This document shows positions 1 to 13,462 of a DNA stretch of 64,000 bases, one piece after another (within the stretch, counting starts at the first letter, position 1; each line of letters begins with the position of its first letter). The translations under genes and the position numbers were made by a program. The notes beneath the pieces were generated by a model, which had not been told where the DNA came from, did not search any database, and was given only the letters and a program-made list of their open reading frames with translations. Origin of the DNA: Rhodanobacter sp. 67-28 (lineage in GTDB: Bacteria; Pseudomonadota; Gammaproteobacteria; Xanthomonadales; Rhodanobacteraceae); NCBI GenBank assembly GCA_001898415.1, contig MKTU01000021.1, positions 1 to 64,000 on the forward strand. The letters are read 5' to 3'.

Positions 1-1169
1 CGCACCCAGTTCACGCCGATATAGGGCGCGAACTGCCGGCGAATCTCATAGCGCAGCCGCAAGCCGAACTGGACGTCGGACACGCCGCTACCGATCCGGC
101 GCTGCGGATCGTTCTTGCCGTAGAGGTTGATTTCCGCTTCCGGCTGCAGGATCAGGCGCTGGGTGAAGAGCATTTCGTAGTCGGCACGCAAGCGTGCCGC
201 CGTGCGACCGGAAGCCCCGACGTAGCCCGTCGCCTCCACCTCGAACCAGTACGGTGCCAGGCCCTGTACGCCGAAGGCCGCCCACGTGCGTTTGGGGCCT
301 TCACCCAGATCCTGCCTGGCACCCAGCTGGGTGCTCCAGTAGGTAGCGATGTTGTGGTTCCAGAACGCTTCAAGGTCGCCGTCTTCCAGCTTGCCGCGGC
401 TACGCTCGCCTTCGGTACGTACCCACAACTTATTCTCGTCGTTGCCATACCAGCCTTCGGCTTCCCAGCTCTGGCCATTGGCATCGCGACCGTGGAACGC
501 TTCGAGCTGATCGATCAACAGCATGCCCAACGACGCGTTGTCAGCCATGTCCATGCCCTTCATGGAACCGTAGCCGACGCCATCGGAGTAATCGGGGCTC
601 CGTGCGTTAGGCGGCGGACTGCCGCCCTGCATGGGGCCCATCGTCATGCCAGGCATCGCGGCCATGCCAGTCATGTCGCCTTGTCCCTTTGGGGGCGTCG
701 CGCTGTGATCCATCCCTTGCATCGCTCCCGGACTCATGCCGGGCATCGATGAATGATCCATCCCGGGCATGTCGCCGACGGGGGCTGCCGATGCGGCGGG
801 CTTGGCCGGCATCGGCATGTCCGACATCGTGCTGTGGTCCATGTTTGGCATGGTGCTGTGATCCATGCCCTTCATGCCGTCCATAGCGTGGGAAGCCGGT
901 GTCGGGGCAGCAGAGACGGGTTTCTTCTTGGCTTTCTTGGCGGGCGCTTTCGTGGCCGGTTTCGCGGCGCTACTGGCGGGAGCCGGCATCGTCATACCGG
1001 CCATGCTGCCGTGATCCATGCCCGGCATCGAACTCATGTCCATCGACGAGGTGCTGCTGGACGCGGGCGCGCTCTGCGCCGTAGCAGCCAGCGGCAACGC
1101 CAGCAGCACTGCAGCCAGCCATACCGAGCGGTGCGGAGCGGTTGAGGTGTTTCGACGATTCACTTTCAT
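1..1169 (-). CDS. copB: Copper resistance protein CopB (C-terminus beyond window)
   Basis: Outer-membrane copper resistance protein, partner of the periplasmic oxidase CopA. The reading frame is open from an ATG at 1169 to the window edge, giving 389 residues without the C-terminus. Residues 1-30 look like a signal peptide ending in ATAQS. A long Met/His-rich stretch follows with repeated MDHS and MPGM units (about residues 40-170), as expected for Cu(I)/Cu(II) binding. The rest resembles the CopB beta-barrel domain (GYGSMKGMDMADN, ENKLWVRTEGER, GVQGLAPYWFEVEATGYVG, ALIRYEIRRQFAP-like end). Its ATG overlaps the copA stop (ATGA), so the two are translationally coupled. The gene is intact as far as visible. 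Confidence 0.93.
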   Translation of the reverse strand, partial: MKVNRRNTSTAPHRSVWLAAVLLALPLAATAQSAPASSSTSSMDMSSMPGMDHGSMAGMTMPAPASSAAKPATKAPAKKAKKKPVSAAPTPASHAMDGMKGMDHSTMPNMDHSTMSDMPMPAKPAASAAPVGDMPGMDHSSMPGMSPGAMQGMDHSATPPKGQGDMTGMAAMPGMTMGPMQGGSPPPNARSPDYSDGVGYGSMKGMDMADNASLGMLLIDQLEAFHGRDANGQSWEAEGWYGNDENKLWVRTEGERSRGKLEDGDLEAFWNHNIATYWSTQLGARQDLGEGPKRTWAAFGVQGLAPYWFEVEATGYVGASGRTAARLRADYEMLFTQRLILQPEAEINLYGKNDPQRRIGSGVSDVQFGLRLRYEIRRQFAPYIGVNWV

Positions 1170-2944
1170 GACACCACCACCTCGCGGAACATGCCAGCTT
1201 CCATGTGGTACAGCAGGTGGCAGTGGTAGGCCCAGCGGCCGGGATTGTCCGCCGACACGGCATAGGTGATGCGCTGCGCCGGCTGCACGTTGATGGTGTG
1301 TTTGCGTACCTGGAACTGGCCTTGCGGATTTTCCATCTCGCTCCACATGCCATGGAGGTGTATCGGGTGGTTCATCATGGTGTCGTTGACCAGCACGATG
1401 CGCAGCCGCTCGCCGCTGTTGAAATGCACCGGCTTGGCATCGGAGAACTTCACGCCGTCGAACGACCAGATGAAGCGCTCCATGTTGCCGGTCAGGTGCA
1501 ACTCGATCTCGCGAGTGGGCTCGCGTGCATCGATCGGGCCGCCGATCGTGTGCAGGTCGGCGTAGGTCAGCACCCGGCGACCGTTATCGCGCAGGCCGAT
1601 GCCCGGATCGTCGAGGTTGGTCCGCGGCATATCCACGTGCATGTCGACACCGGGGCCGTATTCCGTGCGGGCGTGCCGCACCACGGGAGGCGCAGGGTCG
1701 GTCATGCCTGGCATCGCACCATGATCCATGCCGGCCATGCCCTGCATGCCACTCATGCCCGACATGCCTTGCATGCTGCCGTGACCGGAACCACCCATCG
1801 CCATCGCGCCCATCATGTCATCCATGGCGAGCCACTGAATGGGATCGGGCTTGGGCACCTCCGCTTCCATGCCAGCGCGTGGTGCCAGGGTGCCGCGGGC
1901 GTAGCCCGAGCGGTCGATTGACTGGGCGAACAGCGTATAGGCGCGTTCCTCCTGCGGCTCGACGATAACGTCATAGGTTTCGGCCACCGAGATGCGGAAT
2001 TCGTCGACCGACACCGGCTCGATGTCCTGGCCGTCGGCCGAGATCACCGTCATTTTCAGGCCCGGAATGCGCACGTCGAAGATCGTCTGCGCCGAGCCGT
2101 TGATGAAACGCAGCCGAAGCTTCTCGCCGGGTTTGAAGATACCGGTCCAGTTGCCGGCCGGTGCCGCACCGTTCATCAGATAGGTGTAGGTGTAGCCGGA
2201 AACGTCGCCAAAATCGGTCGGATTCATGCGCATCTCGTTCCACATCTTGCGCATGGCCAGGGCTTGACTCAGGCCTTTCTCGCGCACATCGCGGAAGAAA
2301 TCCGGCACGGTGGGCTGGGCGAAGTTGTAGTAGTCGCTCTGTTTCTTAAGCTTGGCGAAAATCCGTTCGGGATTTTCGTCGGTCCAGTCGTTGAGCATCA
2401 CCACATAATCGCGATCGGTGGGATGGCGATCGGGGCCGGCGGGTTCAATCACCAGCGGGCCGTACAGACCCGTCTGTTCCTGGAAACCCGAATGCGAGTG
2501 ATACCAGTAGGTGCCGGACTGACGCACCTTGAACTGATAGAGGAAGGTTTCGCCGGGCGCAATGCCATCGAAACTGATGCCGGGCACGCCATCTTCCTGA
2601 AACGGCAGGATGATGCCGTGCCAGTGGATCGAAGTCGGCACGCGCAGTCGGTTGGTCACGCGCAGGTTCACCGTGGTGCCTTCCTTCCAGCGCAGGATCG
2701 GGCCAGGGATGCCGCCATTGACCGTGGTGGCCAGACGCGTGGCACCGGTGTAGTTGACCGGTGTTTCGGCGATATCCAGCGCGAAGTCGGTGCCGCTCAG
2801 CACCGTGGGGTGACCGGGGTTGGTCAATGCCCAGACGTTCGAGGGACGCAGCAGGCCCAAACCGGCCACAGCGCCGCCGATGGCGACGCCCTGGACGAAA
2901 CGTCGCCGCGACAAATCTGCAGGGGGCGGGGAAAACAGGTTCAT
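1166..2944 (-). CDS. copA: Multicopper oxidase CopA, copper resistance
   Basis: Periplasmic multicopper oxidase of 592 aa, the usual CopA/PcoA length, which oxidises and sequesters copper. A twin-arginine signal (SRRRFVQGVAIGG) is at residues 12-24. Copper ligands are visible in order: SIHWHGIILP and YWYHSHSGFQEQ in the first cupredoxin domain, then HPIHLHGMW and the C-terminal AYHCHLLYHMEAGMFREV. A Met-rich segment (SMQGMSGMSGMQGMAGM and following, about residues 385-415) lies before the last domain, as in other CopA proteins. It is preceded by the copL-like gene (113 bp upstream) and overlaps copB by 4 bp. The order copL-copA-copB on one strand matches the xanthomonad copper operon. Confidence 0.96.
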   Translation of the reverse strand: MNLFSPPPADLSRRRFVQGVAIGGAVAGLGLLRPSNVWALTNPGHPTVLSGTDFALDIAETPVNYTGATRLATTVNGGIPGPILRWKEGTTVNLRVTNRLRVPTSIHWHGIILPFQEDGVPGISFDGIAPGETFLYQFKVRQSGTYWYHSHSGFQEQTGLYGPLVIEPAGPDRHPTDRDYVVMLNDWTDENPERIFAKLKKQSDYYNFAQPTVPDFFRDVREKGLSQALAMRKMWNEMRMNPTDFGDVSGYTYTYLMNGAAPAGNWTGIFKPGEKLRLRFINGSAQTIFDVRIPGLKMTVISADGQDIEPVSVDEFRISVAETYDVIVEPQEERAYTLFAQSIDRSGYARGTLAPRAGMEAEVPKPDPIQWLAMDDMMGAMAMGGSGHGSMQGMSGMSGMQGMAGMDHGAMPGMTDPAPPVVRHARTEYGPGVDMHVDMPRTNLDDPGIGLRDNGRRVLTYADLHTIGGPIDAREPTREIELHLTGNMERFIWSFDGVKFSDAKPVHFNSGERLRIVLVNDTMMNHPIHLHGMWSEMENPQGQFQVRKHTINVQPAQRITYAVSADNPGRWAYHCHLLYHMEAGMFREVVVS

Positions 2945-3962: not shown

Positions 3963-5510
3963 CTATCCCGATAAGTGCCTCGCCAGATAGCGCTCCTGAA
4001 CGACTGTTTCGATCGCATTGGGTCGTGCTGTGCGTACGCGCTTGAGCACTTCATCGCATGGCAGTGACGGGTCGCGACAAGCCAACAACAGCGCGGCCAC
4101 GGTGCCGGCCCGCCCCAGACCGCCTTTGCAATGCACGACCACACTTTCGCCGCGATCGAGTGCTTCATGAAGTTGGGGCAGAATGACCGGCCACTTGCCC
4201 TCGAACCACTCCTCTGAGGTGAACCCCTTTGGGAGGATGTCGGGTGCATGACCATCCAGAATCGGGGCGTGATGCCAGATCAGTCCATGTGCCTCGGCCC
4301 GCTTGGGTAGCGCGATGACATTGAGGTCGACAAACTCCCAAGGTGCAATCAGCGTCACCAGATGCGTCGCACCCCAAGCCTTGATGGCGTCGAGATCGGT
4401 GTCAAGATTGCGATTCCACGCCCCCGTATCCGCAAACGGCTGCTTCTTGCCCGGGCAGAAGGTGATGCCGATCTTGCCGCCGTGCGCCAGATCGATGGTC
4501 CCGATACGCAAAGGGTCGGTGCGACTGCTGCGTGCCTTGCTGATCCAGGCGGTTTGGCGCGGTGTTGCATGAATCAGGAGAACAACGAGCCGGTCGTCTA
4601 TCTTCTCTTTGCCGCGTAGCTGTTCGCGCCACGCATCCGGAATGCCATACATGCCATATCGGAGCCCCGCGATGCCACCCGTCACGGCGGCGGTGAGATC
4701 CGTGTCGCCTCCGAAAGCAATCGCGCGACGCATGGCATCGGTATAGCTATCGGTTTCATTCATCGCCACCCGTGCTGACCACAGGCTATCTATGACATCG
4801 CTGCTACCAGACGCGTAGGTTCCATGCTCACGATCCAGCACTTGCTCGATATCTGCCGTAGCCAGCCCGGCCATCGGGCCCAGTTCGCGCAAACGTGCCT
4901 CGGCATAAGTCCATGGCGCAGGCTTGGCATCCAGTTCGGCGCGCGCCCACAAGGCGTACATCACGGATGCTGTCTTAGCGAAACGGTGCGCTGTCTTGAT
5001 TGAGGACAATCGAACCGCCTTGGCAACCAACTCCACCTCGCTGCCAAGGTGGCAGAGGACTAGCGGAAGCATACGGATCAGCGCACTTCGGTCATCGGCG
5101 CGAACGGTGTCCTGTGAAGCGTGGCCAGCAGGCACGTTCAGTAGCGACTGGACCATATCGGCCGTTTCAGGATCGTTCGCCGGCTTACAGGAGTCGACCG
5201 AGTAAAGGCCCATTTCCGCCCAGCCAAGCACGCGCTCTGTCAGATCATCCAGGCCAAACTGCTCGTGAAGCAGAAGCGCGTGCAGGAGACACAACGCCTG
5301 TGCTCCCTCCATGGTCCATGTCCGTGGGGGTACGTCCGCATAGGATCGGGAGAAGCCGGTGGGCGGTTCGAAGTCAATCATCGCGACGGCGGGCAATTCC
5401 TCTGCGACATGGTGCGCATAGGGTGCGCCCATGGCGCTACCGATCAAGAGACCCCAAAGGCCGCCAGCGAGACGATCGCGCGTTATGTACAGACTTCCAG
5501 GTTGAGCCAT
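3963..5510 (-). CDS. ADP-ribosylglycohydrolase-like domain fused to tyrosine/dual-specificity phosphatase
   Basis: Two-domain cytoplasmic protein of 515 aa. Residues 1-330 match the ADP-ribosylglycohydrolase (DraG) family: GGLWGLLIGSAMGAPY at the start and GGDTDLTAAVTGGIAG near residue 275, which carries the second metal-binding D-x-D-T. The first metal motif, normally T-D-D-T or T-D-D-G, reads TWTMEGAQALCLL, so two acidic ligands are changed. Residues 350-515 form a CDKN3-like phosphatase with a general-acid loop (APILDGHAPD) and the P-loop HCKGGLGRAG (H-C-x5-R). The protein could remove ADP-ribose and phosphate together, or use a degenerate first domain for binding. It is divergent from the 275-aa gene at 5585 and lies inside the recombinase-bearing island. 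Confidence 0.85.
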   Translation of the reverse strand: MAQPGSLYITRDRLAGGLWGLLIGSAMGAPYAHHVAEELPAVAMIDFEPPTGFSRSYADVPPRTWTMEGAQALCLLHALLLHEQFGLDDLTERVLGWAEMGLYSVDSCKPANDPETADMVQSLLNVPAGHASQDTVRADDRSALIRMLPLVLCHLGSEVELVAKAVRLSSIKTAHRFAKTASVMYALWARAELDAKPAPWTYAEARLRELGPMAGLATADIEQVLDREHGTYASGSSDVIDSLWSARVAMNETDSYTDAMRRAIAFGGDTDLTAAVTGGIAGLRYGMYGIPDAWREQLRGKEKIDDRLVVLLIHATPRQTAWISKARSSRTDPLRIGTIDLAHGGKIGITFCPGKKQPFADTGAWNRNLDTDLDAIKAWGATHLVTLIAPWEFVDLNVIALPKRAEAHGLIWHHAPILDGHAPDILPKGFTSEEWFEGKWPVILPQLHEALDRGESVVVHCKGGLGRAGTVAALLLACRDPSLPCDEVLKRVRTARPNAIETVVQERYLARHLSG

Positions 5511-9141: not shown

Positions 9142-10859
9142 ACCGTCAACTCCGCCATCGCAATCCATCCGGCCCAGCGCTTGTGATGGCGCCCTTCCGA
9201 CATCCGAAGGGCGACTTCTTCCACCCAGACTGCACGCTCTGAAGTGCTATGCGCGTAATACTCAAGTTTTTCGGAAATCCGCTCCATGACCCGGTGGGCG
9301 GGATGCTTGTCAGGCGTAGCCATCCACAAACCATCGCGCGCCATCTCCAGACTTTTCAAATGACGCAACGAGGCAAGAGACCAGACATGATCTAGCGTGT
9401 CCAGGTCACGCTGGTGCGCACAAAACAGACAACCATCGGGTGCCCGACAATCGGGCTTAGGCGCCTCTTCGGGCGACTCTGGAAGCATCATGGGTGTAGC
9501 CACGACACACACGCCAGGCCCAGGCGAGGCAATGGCAGGATCGGTTTCGTGCCAAAAACGCGTCGTCTCCGCGACAGCACGTTGGTGATGAGGTCGCTCG
9601 TACTCATCGTGCAGCACTTCCACACTGTGCCCGTGCATTTCGGCAGTCAGCGCAGGATCACCCGTACGCCGAAGCATCCAGTTGATACGCGTCTGCCGCA
9701 AGGACTGGGGCCGGACCAGCTTGACCTGTGCGGCCGCCAAGCGCATTTCGATCTCCTTGAAGGTTCGCTTGCCATGACTGGCCGGCTCACCCTTTTTGTT
9801 GATGTAGGGAAAGAGCAGGTCGCTATCGGTATCAGCGAACACCACAGCACGCCACTTGAGATAGCGATCGAAGTGTTCCCGATACTCGCTGTAGATATGA
9901 AATTCGACCTCCCCCAGTCGGCGATTCTTATAGCGTCTCACACCGTAACCATCGCGCAAGCTCTCGTACCGAAAGTCGCCCATTTGCATTTTCCAGGCCT
10001 GCGTCAAATTCATGCCGGTCTGCGCAATGAAGATCAGCAACTCGGCATCCAAGCGGGTATTGATCGCTGGAGAACGTTGGCGATTGCTTACATCGCTCTC
10101 CCATCGCCGCCGTTCCTCGACAAATCGAGCGCTGACTCGAAGGCGACCCGACACCTTGCCCTGAAGAAGCTCATCCACTGATCGTCGCCGATATCCGCAC
10201 CATTCCTCGTAGGTTTGACCGCTACGGAACGTCAGCAGGATCGGAAGCCGTCCTCGAATAACAGTTTCAGGGAGGGCTACGCAGATGTCGAGCAGCGCAT
10301 GCCCCATCGCAAACGTGTGTTCAAGGTTCTGCTTATCCGACGTTCGATAAATGGCCTTCTTTCGCCCCTTTCGCTCAAGTCGCGCGGCGCGAAAAAGGCT
10401 CGAGTCTGTCCTACCAATGGCGAGTGCGAGCGGAGCTCCCGCCGTGACCCCAGTGCGATACTGACTGGATGCTTTCAGGTCGTGGGTCGCCACACGCTGC
10501 GCACACCATTCCATCCACTCGATGTAAAGGCGGGCTGCGGTGGCGATCGTCGGTTCTTCCGGCCCAGCTTCGTCCACGTAGCGAAAATAGGCACGCAGCG
10601 CCGTCATGACATTTTCCAACGTCCTCTTGGAATGCCCCTTGGCGACACCAGTCGCCACCCGATCATGCAAGGAGACCACTAGTGGCAACCGTTCCGAGAT
10701 GGGGGAACCGAACGCTCCTGCATCGATCGCTGCTCGGACGGCATCTTTGCGCCATGCTGATGCCCCTCGATAGAGAAACATGCGCATATCCCAAGGCTCC
10801 TCCCCCTGGTTGAGCGGCACCTCGGCAAACGTCAACTCCGGAATCGATAATTTAGACAC
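9138..10859 (-). CDS. Tyrosine recombinase family protein, second recombinase, Arg I replaced
   Basis: Recombinase of 573 aa. The C-terminal catalytic region shows SLRQTRINWMLRRTG, MHGHSVEVLHDEYERP (H-x-H then Tyr) and a conserved box around LFPYINKKGEP. At the position of the first catalytic Arg the sequence reads FIAQTGMNLTQAWKM instead of TGMR, so Arg I is Asn. Related second recombinases in Tn554-like modules also have non-standard residues here, so this may be the family state rather than decay. After the catalytic core comes a Cys-containing tail (DGCLFCAHQRDLD). It overlaps the first recombinase by 8 bp and the third by 4 bp. Confidence 0.78.
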   Translation of the reverse strand: MSKLSIPELTFAEVPLNQGEEPWDMRMFLYRGASAWRKDAVRAAIDAGAFGSPISERLPLVVSLHDRVATGVAKGHSKRTLENVMTALRAYFRYVDEAGPEEPTIATAARLYIEWMEWCAQRVATHDLKASSQYRTGVTAGAPLALAIGRTDSSLFRAARLERKGRKKAIYRTSDKQNLEHTFAMGHALLDICVALPETVIRGRLPILLTFRSGQTYEEWCGYRRRSVDELLQGKVSGRLRVSARFVEERRRWESDVSNRQRSPAINTRLDAELLIFIAQTGMNLTQAWKMQMGDFRYESLRDGYGVRRYKNRRLGEVEFHIYSEYREHFDRYLKWRAVVFADTDSDLLFPYINKKGEPASHGKRTFKEIEMRLAAAQVKLVRPQSLRQTRINWMLRRTGDPALTAEMHGHSVEVLHDEYERPHHQRAVAETTRFWHETDPAIASPGPGVCVVATPMMLPESPEEAPKPDCRAPDGCLFCAHQRDLDTLDHVWSLASLRHLKSLEMARDGLWMATPDKHPAHRVMERISEKLEYYAHSTSERAVWVEEVALRMSEGRHHKRWAGWIAMAELTV

Positions 10860-12132
10860 GCTCGTGCTTTTCGGTGGGAAGTTTCATGCAACCGAGAAAC
10901 ACTTTCGTGAATTCATTGGCTACTTCGGCTTTGATTGGTTGCTTCTTGAGATAGTGCACGTAGGCTTCTGTCGTACGTCGACTCGTGTGGAACAACATTT
11001 CACCGACCACCGCCACCGGATCAATCCCCTCGATCTGCAGAGCCAGGCGCATGACGTCGCAAGCAAACGTTGCACGGGTCATGTGGAAGTGAAAGTGGGT
11101 CAGGTTCGCACCCGCTGCACGGGCTATCGATCTAAGCTTGTGCATTTCCACATTGACAGCGGAACTTTTGTTCGCCTGCCGCTTGACATACGGGTTCCCA
11201 AAGCGCGTCAAGAACAGTAGCGACTTGTCATCTTTCTGAGCGAGGGCCTGCCGCTCAAGGCGTCGAAGTGACGACGCGTATTGCGTGAGATCCTCGATCA
11301 ATTTACATGGGACCGTGATATGCCCATAAGTTCCGCCCTTGGTGTGCACGGGTGGCCGAGCGTTCGGGCCGATGGAAATCAGCCGGGCGTCGGGTACGCA
11401 GGGCTCTGGGATAGCTTGAAGAATGGTATCGACCTTGAGATCGCAGATCGATCCGAGGCGCATCCCCGTGTAAAAACCAAGCCGCAGCATCAACGCAAGT
11501 TCCAAACTACCATGCGCATCGACCAGTGTAAGGATCGCATCCCGCTCTTCAGGGCTCACCGGCATCACGCCATTTTCGAGTCCTGCGGAATTCCTTTTTC
11601 GATTGGGTATGGCCAAATCTGTCGTGGTCACGACGACTGTGCGCTCGAAATAATTCGTGCTGTCGAGCTTGATGACGACGTTACGCTCGTGCCACATCGG
11701 CCACTGTGGAGTAATCAAACGTTCGGCGTAGACCCAACGATAGAACCGTACCACTGCACGCATCCGAGCCGATGCTGTCGAAGGAGCTAGGTTGCTAGCC
11801 TCACGTTGCTTGATGAGGAACCCTCGGAAACGAACCAGGCAGCGGTCCTTTTCCTTGGCAGGGAAGTCCCACCAATGAATGGGCGGATCCGTCGACTCCA
11901 ACCACTGCGCATAAGCGTGCAAGGCCTTGGCGTTAGAGCGAACCGTCTCGATGTTCTGTCGATAAGCACGGCTGAGTAACCACAGATTTGCCTCGCGCCA
12001 TGGCTCGCCACTTTCCCAGCAAATCTGGGGCAAACCCTCCATGGCCCCGCTTTTTAGAGGGACCCAAGAGAGCTTGCCATCGACGACTTCCGGGGAATGC
12101 GGCGTGAAGGTAATGAGTTCACATCGCGCCAT
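10852..12132 (-). CDS. Tyrosine recombinase, first recombinase of the island
   Basis: Phage-integrase-family recombinase of 426 aa with the full catalytic set: GFYTGMRLGSICDL (Arg I), a GGTYGHITVPCKL strand pair, HFHMTRATFACDVM (H-x-x-R) and FHTSRRTTEAYVHYLKK (H and the Tyr nucleophile). The ATG at 12132 is preferred over the TTG at 12153 that opens the frame. It is the promoter-proximal gene of the four-gene module and is closest to the element end at about 12.37 kb, the arrangement seen in Tn554-like elements. It should catalyse strand exchange without leaving terminal inverted repeats. Confidence 0.82.
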   Translation of the reverse strand: MARCELITFTPHSPEVVDGKLSWVPLKSGAMEGLPQICWESGEPWREANLWLLSRAYRQNIETVRSNAKALHAYAQWLESTDPPIHWWDFPAKEKDRCLVRFRGFLIKQREASNLAPSTASARMRAVVRFYRWVYAERLITPQWPMWHERNVVIKLDSTNYFERTVVVTTTDLAIPNRKRNSAGLENGVMPVSPEERDAILTLVDAHGSLELALMLRLGFYTGMRLGSICDLKVDTILQAIPEPCVPDARLISIGPNARPPVHTKGGTYGHITVPCKLIEDLTQYASSLRRLERQALAQKDDKSLLFLTRFGNPYVKRQANKSSAVNVEMHKLRSIARAAGANLTHFHFHMTRATFACDVMRLALQIEGIDPVAVVGEMLFHTSRRTTEAYVHYLKKQPIKAEVANEFTKVFLGCMKLPTEKHERV

Positions 12133-12307
12133 GACAAACACGCCGGGACGCAATGGTCGTGACCGCTTTGAGGGAAACGACGTCTGCTGCGATCGGTTCT
12201 TGCACTTTCATAGCAACGATGCAGCCGGTGGGATGCAAGCCTTTGCCATTTCGCTTCGTCCAAACTGCTTGCTCCACACGACATTCAACGTTCACAGATC
12301 TAGCCCA

Positions 12308-12376
12308 GTGTTAGCGACAGTGTCCATACACTAACACCTAATCGTTACTTGTCCATACTAAATACCTAATCGGTAC
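12308..12376. repeat. Direct and inverted repeats at the right end of the recombinase island
   Basis: Two imperfect direct copies lie side by side: TGTCCATACACTAACACCTA... (12321-12348) and TGTCCATACTAAATACCTAA... (12350-12376). Both share TGTCCATAC and ACCTAATCG. An inverted pair, GTGTTAG (12308-12314) and CTAACAC (12331-12337), overlaps the first copy. They lie upstream of the first recombinase gene, exactly where the interrupted gene begins, so they are likely recombinase binding sites at the element end. The remaining bases 12133-12307 show nothing I can name beyond the presumed operon promoter. Confidence 0.6.
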
Positions 12377-12467
12377 CGCCGCTGACCCCCACCGCCACAA
12401 CCGCGTCAACCGCCAGGAGTGCGTCGATCTCAGGTGTCAGGGCTACATCCAGGCGCGTGCAGGCCAT
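12366..12467 (-). pseudogene. Truncated PP-loop ATPase gene (PAPS reductase / QueC-like superfamily), interrupted by the island
   Basis: An ATG at 12467, with GGAG eight bases upstream, opens a 33-residue frame ending ...DAVVAVGVSGGTD followed at once by TAG. AVGVSGGTD is the first part of the PP-loop signature SGGxDS of N-type ATP pyrophosphatases (PAPS reductase, adenine nucleotide alpha hydrolases, QueC, TilS). The coding sequence stops exactly at the Asp codon, where the recombinase-module end repeats begin. The rest of the gene should lie at the far end of the island, outside the window. It is the gene downstream of the dpdA-like gene, with a 59-bp gap, so the two may have formed one operon. 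Confidence 0.72.
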
Positions 12468-12526
12468 GCCGTTCTCCGTGGTGAAGGGATGCGACCAGTC
12501 TCACGCGTCACGGCCGGTGCCAAAGA

Positions 12527-13462
12527 TCAGCCGATTTCGGCGGTGAGTGGTGTGCGCCGCCGGCGCGGGCGCTGCTGGTCATACCAGTCGCGCATCGCAG
12601 CCGCGCGGTGTTCCATCGAGCTCGGCGCGCCAGCCTTCCGGGCCGCCACACGCGCGCCGAAGTCCCAAGCCATGGAGTCGAATGAGGCCACCTGTGGAAT
12701 GTCGGCCAGCTCAGCCATGGCCGCACCCTTCACGCCGAAGCAGTGGACGCGGGCGGTTGGCGGCAGGCGGGGCAGAAGGTGGTCGAGGACGGCGCGGATG
12801 CCGATGTCCGGATCGTTGAGCGGTCGCCGGCACATGCTGCCGAGTCCGATCAGGACGGGAGCATCAAAGTGGGTCGCGTGCTTCTGCCAAGCCTCCTGCA
12901 TCAGGTCGAGGCTGCGCACGTAATCGTCCGGAAGCCAACCCTGCAGCACCGGCACCGGTGGCGCGAGCCAGAAGGCGCCGAGATCCTGCCAGCGGGCTAC
13001 GAGTGTGAGGTGCGCTTCGAGCATCGCCGCGGTCGCCTCGATGCGGTGATGCCGCACGCCGGCGTCGTGGGCGATCTCCGGCTCAACGCACATGTCCGGC
13101 TGCGATGCCCATGCCGGGCGCAGGACACCGATAAGGTTGACGTAGTTCGCGAGTGACCATGGGAACACGCCGAGCATGCCAGGCTGGTGGCCGAGCCGCT
13201 TCCAATTCATCATCGCCGAGAAGCCGGCGGAGTCGAGCGCGAAGTCGCAGTCCTGCAGTACGCCGATGTCCGCATCGGTGCGAAATCGCAAATCCTGCCG
13301 ATCCCAGAAGGCCGAGGCCGACACCATGACCGGCATCCCTGCCCGGTAGGCCGTGAGGCACAAGGCCCCACCACGATGTGGGATGCCGATGCGCAGAACC
13401 GGCTCCTCGCCGAGGTAGGCGTTGACGCGTTCCGGTGGCGGCGAAAGCCAGTCGTTTCTCAT
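12527..13462 (-). CDS. DpdA-family 7-deazaguanine transglycosylase (TGT-like)
   Basis: Protein of 311 aa related to tRNA-guanine transglycosylase. It matches the DpdA-type proteins that insert 7-deazaguanine bases, in DNA in the characterised cases. Motifs visible: DFALDSAGFSAMM, the counterpart of the D-S-G-G-F/Y catalytic box; PVLQGWLPDDYVRSLDLM; VLIGLGSMCRRPLND; RVHCFGVKGAAM; and SFDSMAWDFGAR, which would hold the second active-site Asp. These boxes are shared with the short phage and plasmid members annotated as queuine tRNA-ribosyltransferase-like. No precursor genes (FolE, QueD, QueE, QueC) occur in the window, so host preQ0 would be needed. The truncated PP-loop gene follows it and a 145-aa unknown gene precedes it by 6 bp. 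Confidence 0.75.
   Translation of the reverse strand: MRNDWLSPPPERVNAYLGEEPVLRIGIPHRGGALCLTAYRAGMPVMVSASAFWDRQDLRFRTDADIGVLQDCDFALDSAGFSAMMNWKRLGHQPGMLGVFPWSLANYVNLIGVLRPAWASQPDMCVEPEIAHDAGVRHHRIEATAAMLEAHLTLVARWQDLGAFWLAPPVPVLQGWLPDDYVRSLDLMQEAWQKHATHFDAPVLIGLGSMCRRPLNDPDIGIRAVLDHLLPRLPPTARVHCFGVKGAAMAELADIPQVASFDSMAWDFGARVAARKAGAPSSMEHRAAAMRDWYDQQRPRRRRTPLTAEIG

Follow-up and report, generated by a model that had tools for sequence, protein, structure and literature searches.

The window analysed here, the first 64 kb of a 122-kb contig (C21) in a draft genome of 4.08 Mb and 82 contigs, holds the left end of an element that has broken a PP-loop gene within its ATP-binding motif; the missing part of the gene starts at SGG|KDS and lies outside the window, on contig C50 (C50:10472-11470), next to the right end of the element. 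Judged by its sequence, the intruder is no new kind of island: it belongs to the SEs, as a new deep branch whose target is also new.

In the explanation that we consider highly probable, IntA and IntB, aided by Tfp and Srap, would have joined a circular copy of this SE to a plasmid-type PP-loop gene at the codons (AG)C-GGC-GG of SGGKDS, with a crossover of about 6 bp (CGGCGG) that broke the gene without visible loss; separate SE lineages would use short DNA sites coding for conserved motifs in different genes, and these sites would tolerate changes at third codon positions. Since such short sites code for conserved motifs, the target would be present in many hosts. What the sequences show directly is the split gene, the two element ends, the homology of the operon and the sites occupied by relatives; that the element moved as SEs do, which site served as donor, and that targeting a motif brings an advantage are the parts of this account that we infer.

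Table 1. Features of the left part of the element and its flank, in window coordinates
Feature	Position	Strand	Details or basis
Multicopper oxidase (cargo)	1166..2944	-	CopA-like by inference
ADP-ribosylglycohydrolase joined to a tyrosine-phosphatase-like domain (cargo)	3963..5510	-	
Cargo ORF, 275 aa	5585..6412	+	
Srap homologue, 143 aa	6642..7073	-	49% identity to WP_023443007.1
IntB homologue, 703 aa	7057..9168	-	R346, K378, H505, R508, H532, Y540/541
Tfp homologue, 573 aa	9138..10859	-	Weak tyrosine-recombinase match; N284 at the position of the first catalytic Arg
IntA homologue, 433 aa, tyrosine recombinase	10852..12153	-	R232, K272, H357, R360, H389, Y398
Internal copy of the end repeat	12333-12348	.	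Direct repeat with 12361-12376, 16 bp each, spacing 28
Left terminal motif C, TACCGATTAGGTATTTAGTATGGAC	12351..12375	-	Sequence read
6-bp crossover/spacer CGGCGG at attL	12376..12381	-	Register by comparison with related element ends
N-terminal piece of the split PP-loop gene, ATG to ...VGVSGG	12376..12467	-	Homology to P0001 residues 17-50 and neighbour order
DpdA-like neighbour outside the element	12527-13462	-	PF23859

Two halves of one PP-loop gene

The first-pass annotation of this DNA had described a short ATG frame that stops at a TAG where the repeats of a recombinase module begin, and had read this as a PP-loop gene interrupted by an island within SGGxDS. That frame is real: from the ATG at 12467, the minus strand (12467-12366) reads MACTRLDVALTPEIDALLAVDAVVAVGVSGGTD and then TAG, and the repeats are two 16-bp direct repeats. 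Its 33 residues are encoded by native DNA up to GGC GG (12376), after which the element end supplies the last codons and the stop. As a query we used P0001, the product of an intact 378-residue PAPS-reductase-family gene of the Azospira plasmid pAZI09. In the search of the element's own genome, P0001 residues 17-50 match C21:12461-12360 (50% identity, E 0.008), the match crossing the TAG, and residues 44-375 match C50:10472-11470 (53% identity, E 3e-110). A DpdA-like homologue lies directly upstream of the intact gene on pAZI09, matching the order of neighbours in the window. At the level of sequence, the short frame is thereby confirmed as the N-terminus of a PP-loop (PAPS-reductase-family) gene and not a chance frame.

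The C-terminal half on C50 also matches PF01507 above the cut-off (27.8 vs 22.5 bits), and a methyltransferase gene lies 3' of it. Another PF01507 match, at C9:336-509, had been considered as the missing half and was dropped, P0001 having pointed to C50. No compensating PP-loop copy of the same type was found in the genome, where P0001 matched only the two halves. Eleven intact relatives, which read S[GA]G[KR]D at the motif, run uninterrupted through it (10 plasmid-borne, including P0001, and one from another genome); the closest, at 69.8% identity, is carried by a 218-kb plasmid of Rhodanobacter thiooxydans that has a methyltransferase gene about 3 kb from its PP-loop gene. The annotation had suggested looking for the continuing frame beyond the far end of the island and for the same short frame in relatives without it; since the frame resumes at the other end and is complete in all 11 relatives that lack the element, neither of the two outcomes that it had named as counting against its reading was found.

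On the gene strand, the left junction reads ...GTGGGGGTCAG CGGCGG TACCGATTAGGTATTTAGTATGGACAAG, and the right junction on C50 reads ...CATGTCCATAGATCATCATCTAACCGGTG CGGCGG CAAGGACAGCCAGG, with the same hexamer at C50:10471-10476. Terminal inverted repeats (TACCGATTAG/CACCGGTTAG) stand at both ends, each with CGGCGG alongside, the inverted partner C' on C50 (CACCGGTTAG...TATGGAC) adjoining attR. Compared as TACCGATTAG...TATGGACAAG and CACCGGTTAG...TATGGACATG, the repeats are imperfect, with 8/10 outer bases alike, in agreement with the imperfect terminal inverted repeats C/C' of 13-19 bp by which SEs are recognised. Similar ends are found in the relatives L035, L048, L057 and L076 (L035 end, CACGGATTAG; L048 ends, CACGGATTAG / CACGGGTTAG; L076 end, TACGGGTTAG), and because these relatives with other targets have such ends, the register of the junction is known to about +/-1 bp. 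In the reading frame of the gene, the left side gives V-S-G-G and the right side G-G-K-D-S; the halves overlap by 7 bp only, and so, by comparison with the relatives, nothing of the gene has been lost. A hairpin at the left end was unsupported (z -0.92), and searches for a promoter or terminator gave no match.

Insertion sites and end hexamers of related elements

Targets of related elements were read from translations of the DNA upstream of intA, and among the matches listed 42 of 55 loci could be assigned. A Pfam check of 15 of the 42 gave a family for 14 and none for L095, which, together with L096 (outside the Pfam scan), is a tentative ComM assignment. UmuC/RulB, entered at YS[ILV]D|E, accounts for 20 of the 42, ComM/YifB for eight (six at or next to DLPKDGG|RFDL and the two tentative ones), an MmeI-like methylase for four (at DP..G|SG) and YchF for three, all at the last codons of the gene. 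Single targets are an integron-type integrase (near the C-terminal IYT), a threonine-aldolase-like gene (Beta_elim_lyase), a GFA enzyme, a sulfatase, an S58 peptidase, a tRNA-editing domain and SRAP. In L046, from a genome of the same order and included in no count, the target is presumably MazG; its fragment had no Pfam match. Of 14 plasmid records fetched with the element, six have it in umuC (L036, L037, L038, L040, L102 and L103) and one in an integrase gene (L035), while the remaining seven (L039 and L104-L109) have no assigned target. Apart from the 55 loci, the element on a Stenotrophomonas rhizophila plasmid has a piece of integrase beyond its operon (PF00589 positions 109-169), and the coding piece at its left end is taken for the front of the same integrase gene.

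Many insertion points of elements with related recombinases, which the annotation had advised inspecting, lie in conserved motifs, but its suggestion of entry into PP-loop genes in many hosts found no support: there is no second PP-loop insertion among the 42 assigned targets of the 55 operons, and among 45 genomes of the genus only the element's own carries it.

For four target families, the six-residue window at the junction was ranked by Jensen-Shannon conservation among all kept alignment columns, with homologue sets of 21/30 fetched loci for ComM, 10/11 for UmuC, 11/16 for the methylase and 11 for the PP-loop gene; the seven single-case targets were left aside. The junction ranks 8/425 in UmuC (n=10), 28/508 in ComM (n=21), 22/372 in the PP-loop gene (n=11) and 4/802 in the MmeI-like methylase (n=11). 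All four junctions lie within the top 6% (94.4-99.6th percentile), which is suggestive and not a clean test because the targets were partly recognised by their motifs.

Two members of the umuC-targeting clade stand in other genes, L065 in a GFA-family gene (ELYTIN) and L067 in a sulfatase gene (ALYIED), at DNA similar to that of the YSID site, which suggests that recognition by the recombinases depends on the DNA sequence and not on the identity of the gene. In four umuC-targeting SEs, umuC-like frames of 436-479 residues lie a few kb downstream of the operon (L049:14588, L053:14773, L054:8588 and L060:14950); these are perhaps replacements for the broken gene, as was suggested for bcp in SE-6283 (PMC9345347).

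Published descriptions of SEs derive the hexamer adjoining the left end from the target and the one adjoining the right end from the donor (PMC9345347, PMC10214605). TAAGARTA is present at 26 left ends of the umuC group, of which 24 stand at YS[ILV]D and two in other genes with similar sequence; hexamers at the 24 sites include CATCGA, GATCGA, AATCGA, AATTGA, AATAGA and TATAGA. Where both ends of a umuC-SE were read, the left/right hexamers are TATCGA/AATAGA (L072), CGTTGA/CATTGA (L103), AGTTGA/AGTTGA (L102 with L185) and CATCGA/TATCGA (G685, L043 with L181). In all four, both hexamers encode the third base of Ser followed by Ile/Val-Asp, and the donor would therefore be another such site, whichever side holds the donor bases. 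In the two ComM elements for which both ends are available, the right hexamers (TGCCGT and AGCCGC) do not match GGCGGG on the left, which counts against the general account; the sister element L035 has a site, TGCCGA, that TGCCGT resembles. Left and right hexamers differ in L048, L076, L072, L103 and G685 and are equal in L102/L185 and in the window element. Under the published rule, CGGCGG at both ends of the latter would mean that its previous site had the same six bases, and a donor of SGG type would fit; this hexamer should, however, be common in GC-rich DNA, and equal bases at the two ends would also arise from an ordinary direct repeat.

The tendency of SEs to insert at conserved motifs is real, and individual cases (rulB/umuC, bcp) are already published, but it is not universal, since 13 of the 55 insertion points fall outside the assignment and some of them may be intergenic (L051, L063, L071, L074, L078, L079, L080, L082, L087, L092, L097, L099 and L101). 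The three YchF insertions are a counter-case, as is SE-6945 with its T-rich, partly intergenic sites (PMC9345347). Only tentatively, and with somewhat less than even confidence, do we go further and propose that SEs home to the codons of invariant motifs, one motif per lineage, with third-position tolerance (YSID of UmuC, DPACG of DNA methylases, DGG|RFDL of ComM and SGG|KDS of PP-loop ATPases), and that the gene broken before leaves its trace, codon by codon, in the 6-bp footprint.

A competing account treats the PP-loop insertion as a one-off, in which the lineage accepts many GC-rich sites and the match with a conserved motif is coincidence. It would suit the single known PP-loop insertion, the lone position of the element in the tree and the hexamer CGGCGG, which should be common in GC-rich DNA and hence frequent in GC-rich genomes; moreover, the same genome has open umuC (442 aa, C21:91883) and comM (633 aa, C55:16134) frames, both of them targets of related elements that this one left unused. 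The near-maximal conservation of the junctions in all four measured families and the equality of the right-end and left-end hexamers speak against coincidence, and we regard this account as rather doubtful, while granting it appreciable weight.

The annotation's description of a novel insertion strategy was too strong for one element: the gene set belongs to a known system, and insertion into conserved genes is already in print, with integron-like elements in rulB (PMC4542609), tmexCD elements in umuC (PMC8547460) and SE-6283 in bcp (PMC9345347). The available parts of these three accounts give no single SE rule and name no protein motif, and at the level of titles and abstract openings no report of motif targeting by SEs was found in the literature searched. 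If conserved-motif codons are a usual address, this would explain how SEs find sites in very different hosts and plasmids, and the end hexamers would be a readable record of past jumps. Among the elements concerned, the window element carries metal-related genes and some of the umuC group carry drug-resistance genes; the pattern would link rulB integron-like elements, tmexCD-in-umuC elements and SEs, which are separate lines in the literature examined. We consider the family-level pattern of conserved-motif addresses, third-position tolerance and motif-coding end hexamers worth following.

Operon, relatives and cargo

The four-gene operon intA-tfp-intB-srap, whose frames overlap, starts 222 bp inside the left end, the arrangement of core genes expected of an SE. 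Family libraries name only IntA (Phage_integrase), plus Tfp below the cut-off. All four proteins are homologous over about their full length to those of a Klebsiella plasmid element (45, 39, 39 and 49% identity, tblastn), whose second and fourth proteins, WP_034039553.1 and WP_023443007.1, are the Tfp-Srap pair identifying SE-PaeBT2436 (Idola et al., PMC10214605); the window Tfp has 39% identity to this published Tfp. The three tyrosine recombinases of the first-pass annotation are indeed three proteins of that fold, but the catalytic set of Tfp is incomplete. Across alignments of 70-72 relatives, IntA and IntB keep R, K, H-R, H and Y, and Tfp has Asn at the first Arg; RHRY is present in IntA and IntB and not in Tfp, as in SEs. 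The element forms a lone deep branch in a tree of 68 of 73 loci (L045 and L095 in the tree are the same locus).

The order of catalytic, non-catalytic and catalytic proteins is that of SEs, and the proteins align over about their full length with a published SE; we therefore think it very unlikely that we are dealing with a GInt (ginABCD) or some other island with three integrases, even though GInts have the same four-gene layout and a similar tripartite structure and are reported in Beta- and Gammaproteobacteria (PMC5385486, PMC10214605).

Plasmid searches returned 104 records with Tfp and 120 with IntB. Matches were found in five of 398 genomes of the order and two of 369 genomes of the class, the element's own included in both. 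A search of genome_contigs with a single protein gave no relatives, and one scan with the Tfp alignment gave the 55 loci, of which 52 have all four genes in place by tblastn (exceptions L080, L085 and L101). In viral_contigs, one search gave two loci and another none. SE operons also occur in records titled Betaproteobacteria (L058, L065, L071, L074, L075, L079, L087 with the intA start missing, L092, L098, L099 and L104), with hosts including Herbaspirillum, Chromobacterium, Paraburkholderia, a Zoogloea MAG, Pandoraea and a Burkholderia dolosa plasmid, whereas the part of PMC10214605 available reports no Tfp/Srap homologues in Beta- or Alphaproteobacteria.

To judge from their sequences, the cargo genes look like metal-resistance genes: besides the oxidase in the window, C50 carries an efflux set with OEP, AcrB-type and CusB-type domains, a metal-sensitive repressor and a P-type ATPase. 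The 275-aa cargo ORF had no match in Pfam, NCBIfam or PADLOC. C21 and C50 both end inside the element, which measures 12.4 + 10.5 kb or more and whose middle is unassembled. Copies of the first 400 bases of C21 occur elsewhere in the genome (84% and 76%) and may have caused the assembly to break there. The assembly is a draft and places the halves on separate contigs; even so, an artefact, in which two unrelated contigs chance to end in PP-loop parts, is extremely improbable, as both junctions lie inside contigs (12.4 kb and 10.5 kb from the nearer contig end) with matching inverted repeats, the halves share only 7 bp and both sides continue into metal-related genes.

Comparison with known systems

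Inteins and homing introns also insert at the codons of conserved motifs and tolerate synonymous changes, but, unlike SEs, which break the host gene, they spare it by splicing themselves out. The Tn554 family has its target inside the gene radC. Like the window set, it combines tyrosine recombinases with a small protein (TnpC), but it has no counterpart of Tfp and lives in different hosts; its members carry 6 bp from the donor site (PMC10214605). A RIT element is described as having three recombinases of 315-410 aa, all with the catalytic Tyr, and no small fourth protein (PMC10214605), whereas the window proteins have 433, 573 and 703 aa and are accompanied by a 143-aa protein.

GInts (ginABCD) share with the window element a four-gene operon, three proteins of recombinase fold, cargo and a short right end. 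They differ in that the protein without the first catalytic Arg is the third (GinC); in the window operon it is the second, and the third has R346. GInts form separate sequence clusters in PMC10214605.

ILE-FH1, ILE-FH4 and ILE-FH5 in rulB of Pseudomonas have three recombinases, a fixed position within the gene and an end adjoining the broken gene, as the window element does, and tmexCD-toprJ elements, with two int genes as described, likewise occupy a fixed site within umuC. Their target is the UmuC/RulB polymerase and not a PP-loop gene, and their accounts, in the parts available, name neither SEs nor a protein motif.

The closest likeness is with SEs themselves: the window element has their left-end operon, ends in imperfect inverted repeats each adjoined by a 6-bp site, and shares site preference and cargo with them; SE-6283 also breaks a gene (bcp). 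SEs in general are further marked by circles that form with strand bias and leave no empty site. The window element differs in having only 39-49% protein identity to SE-PaeBT2436, a separate deep branch, a host of the order Lysobacterales, the ATP-binding motif of a PP-loop protein as its target and a large metal-related cargo.
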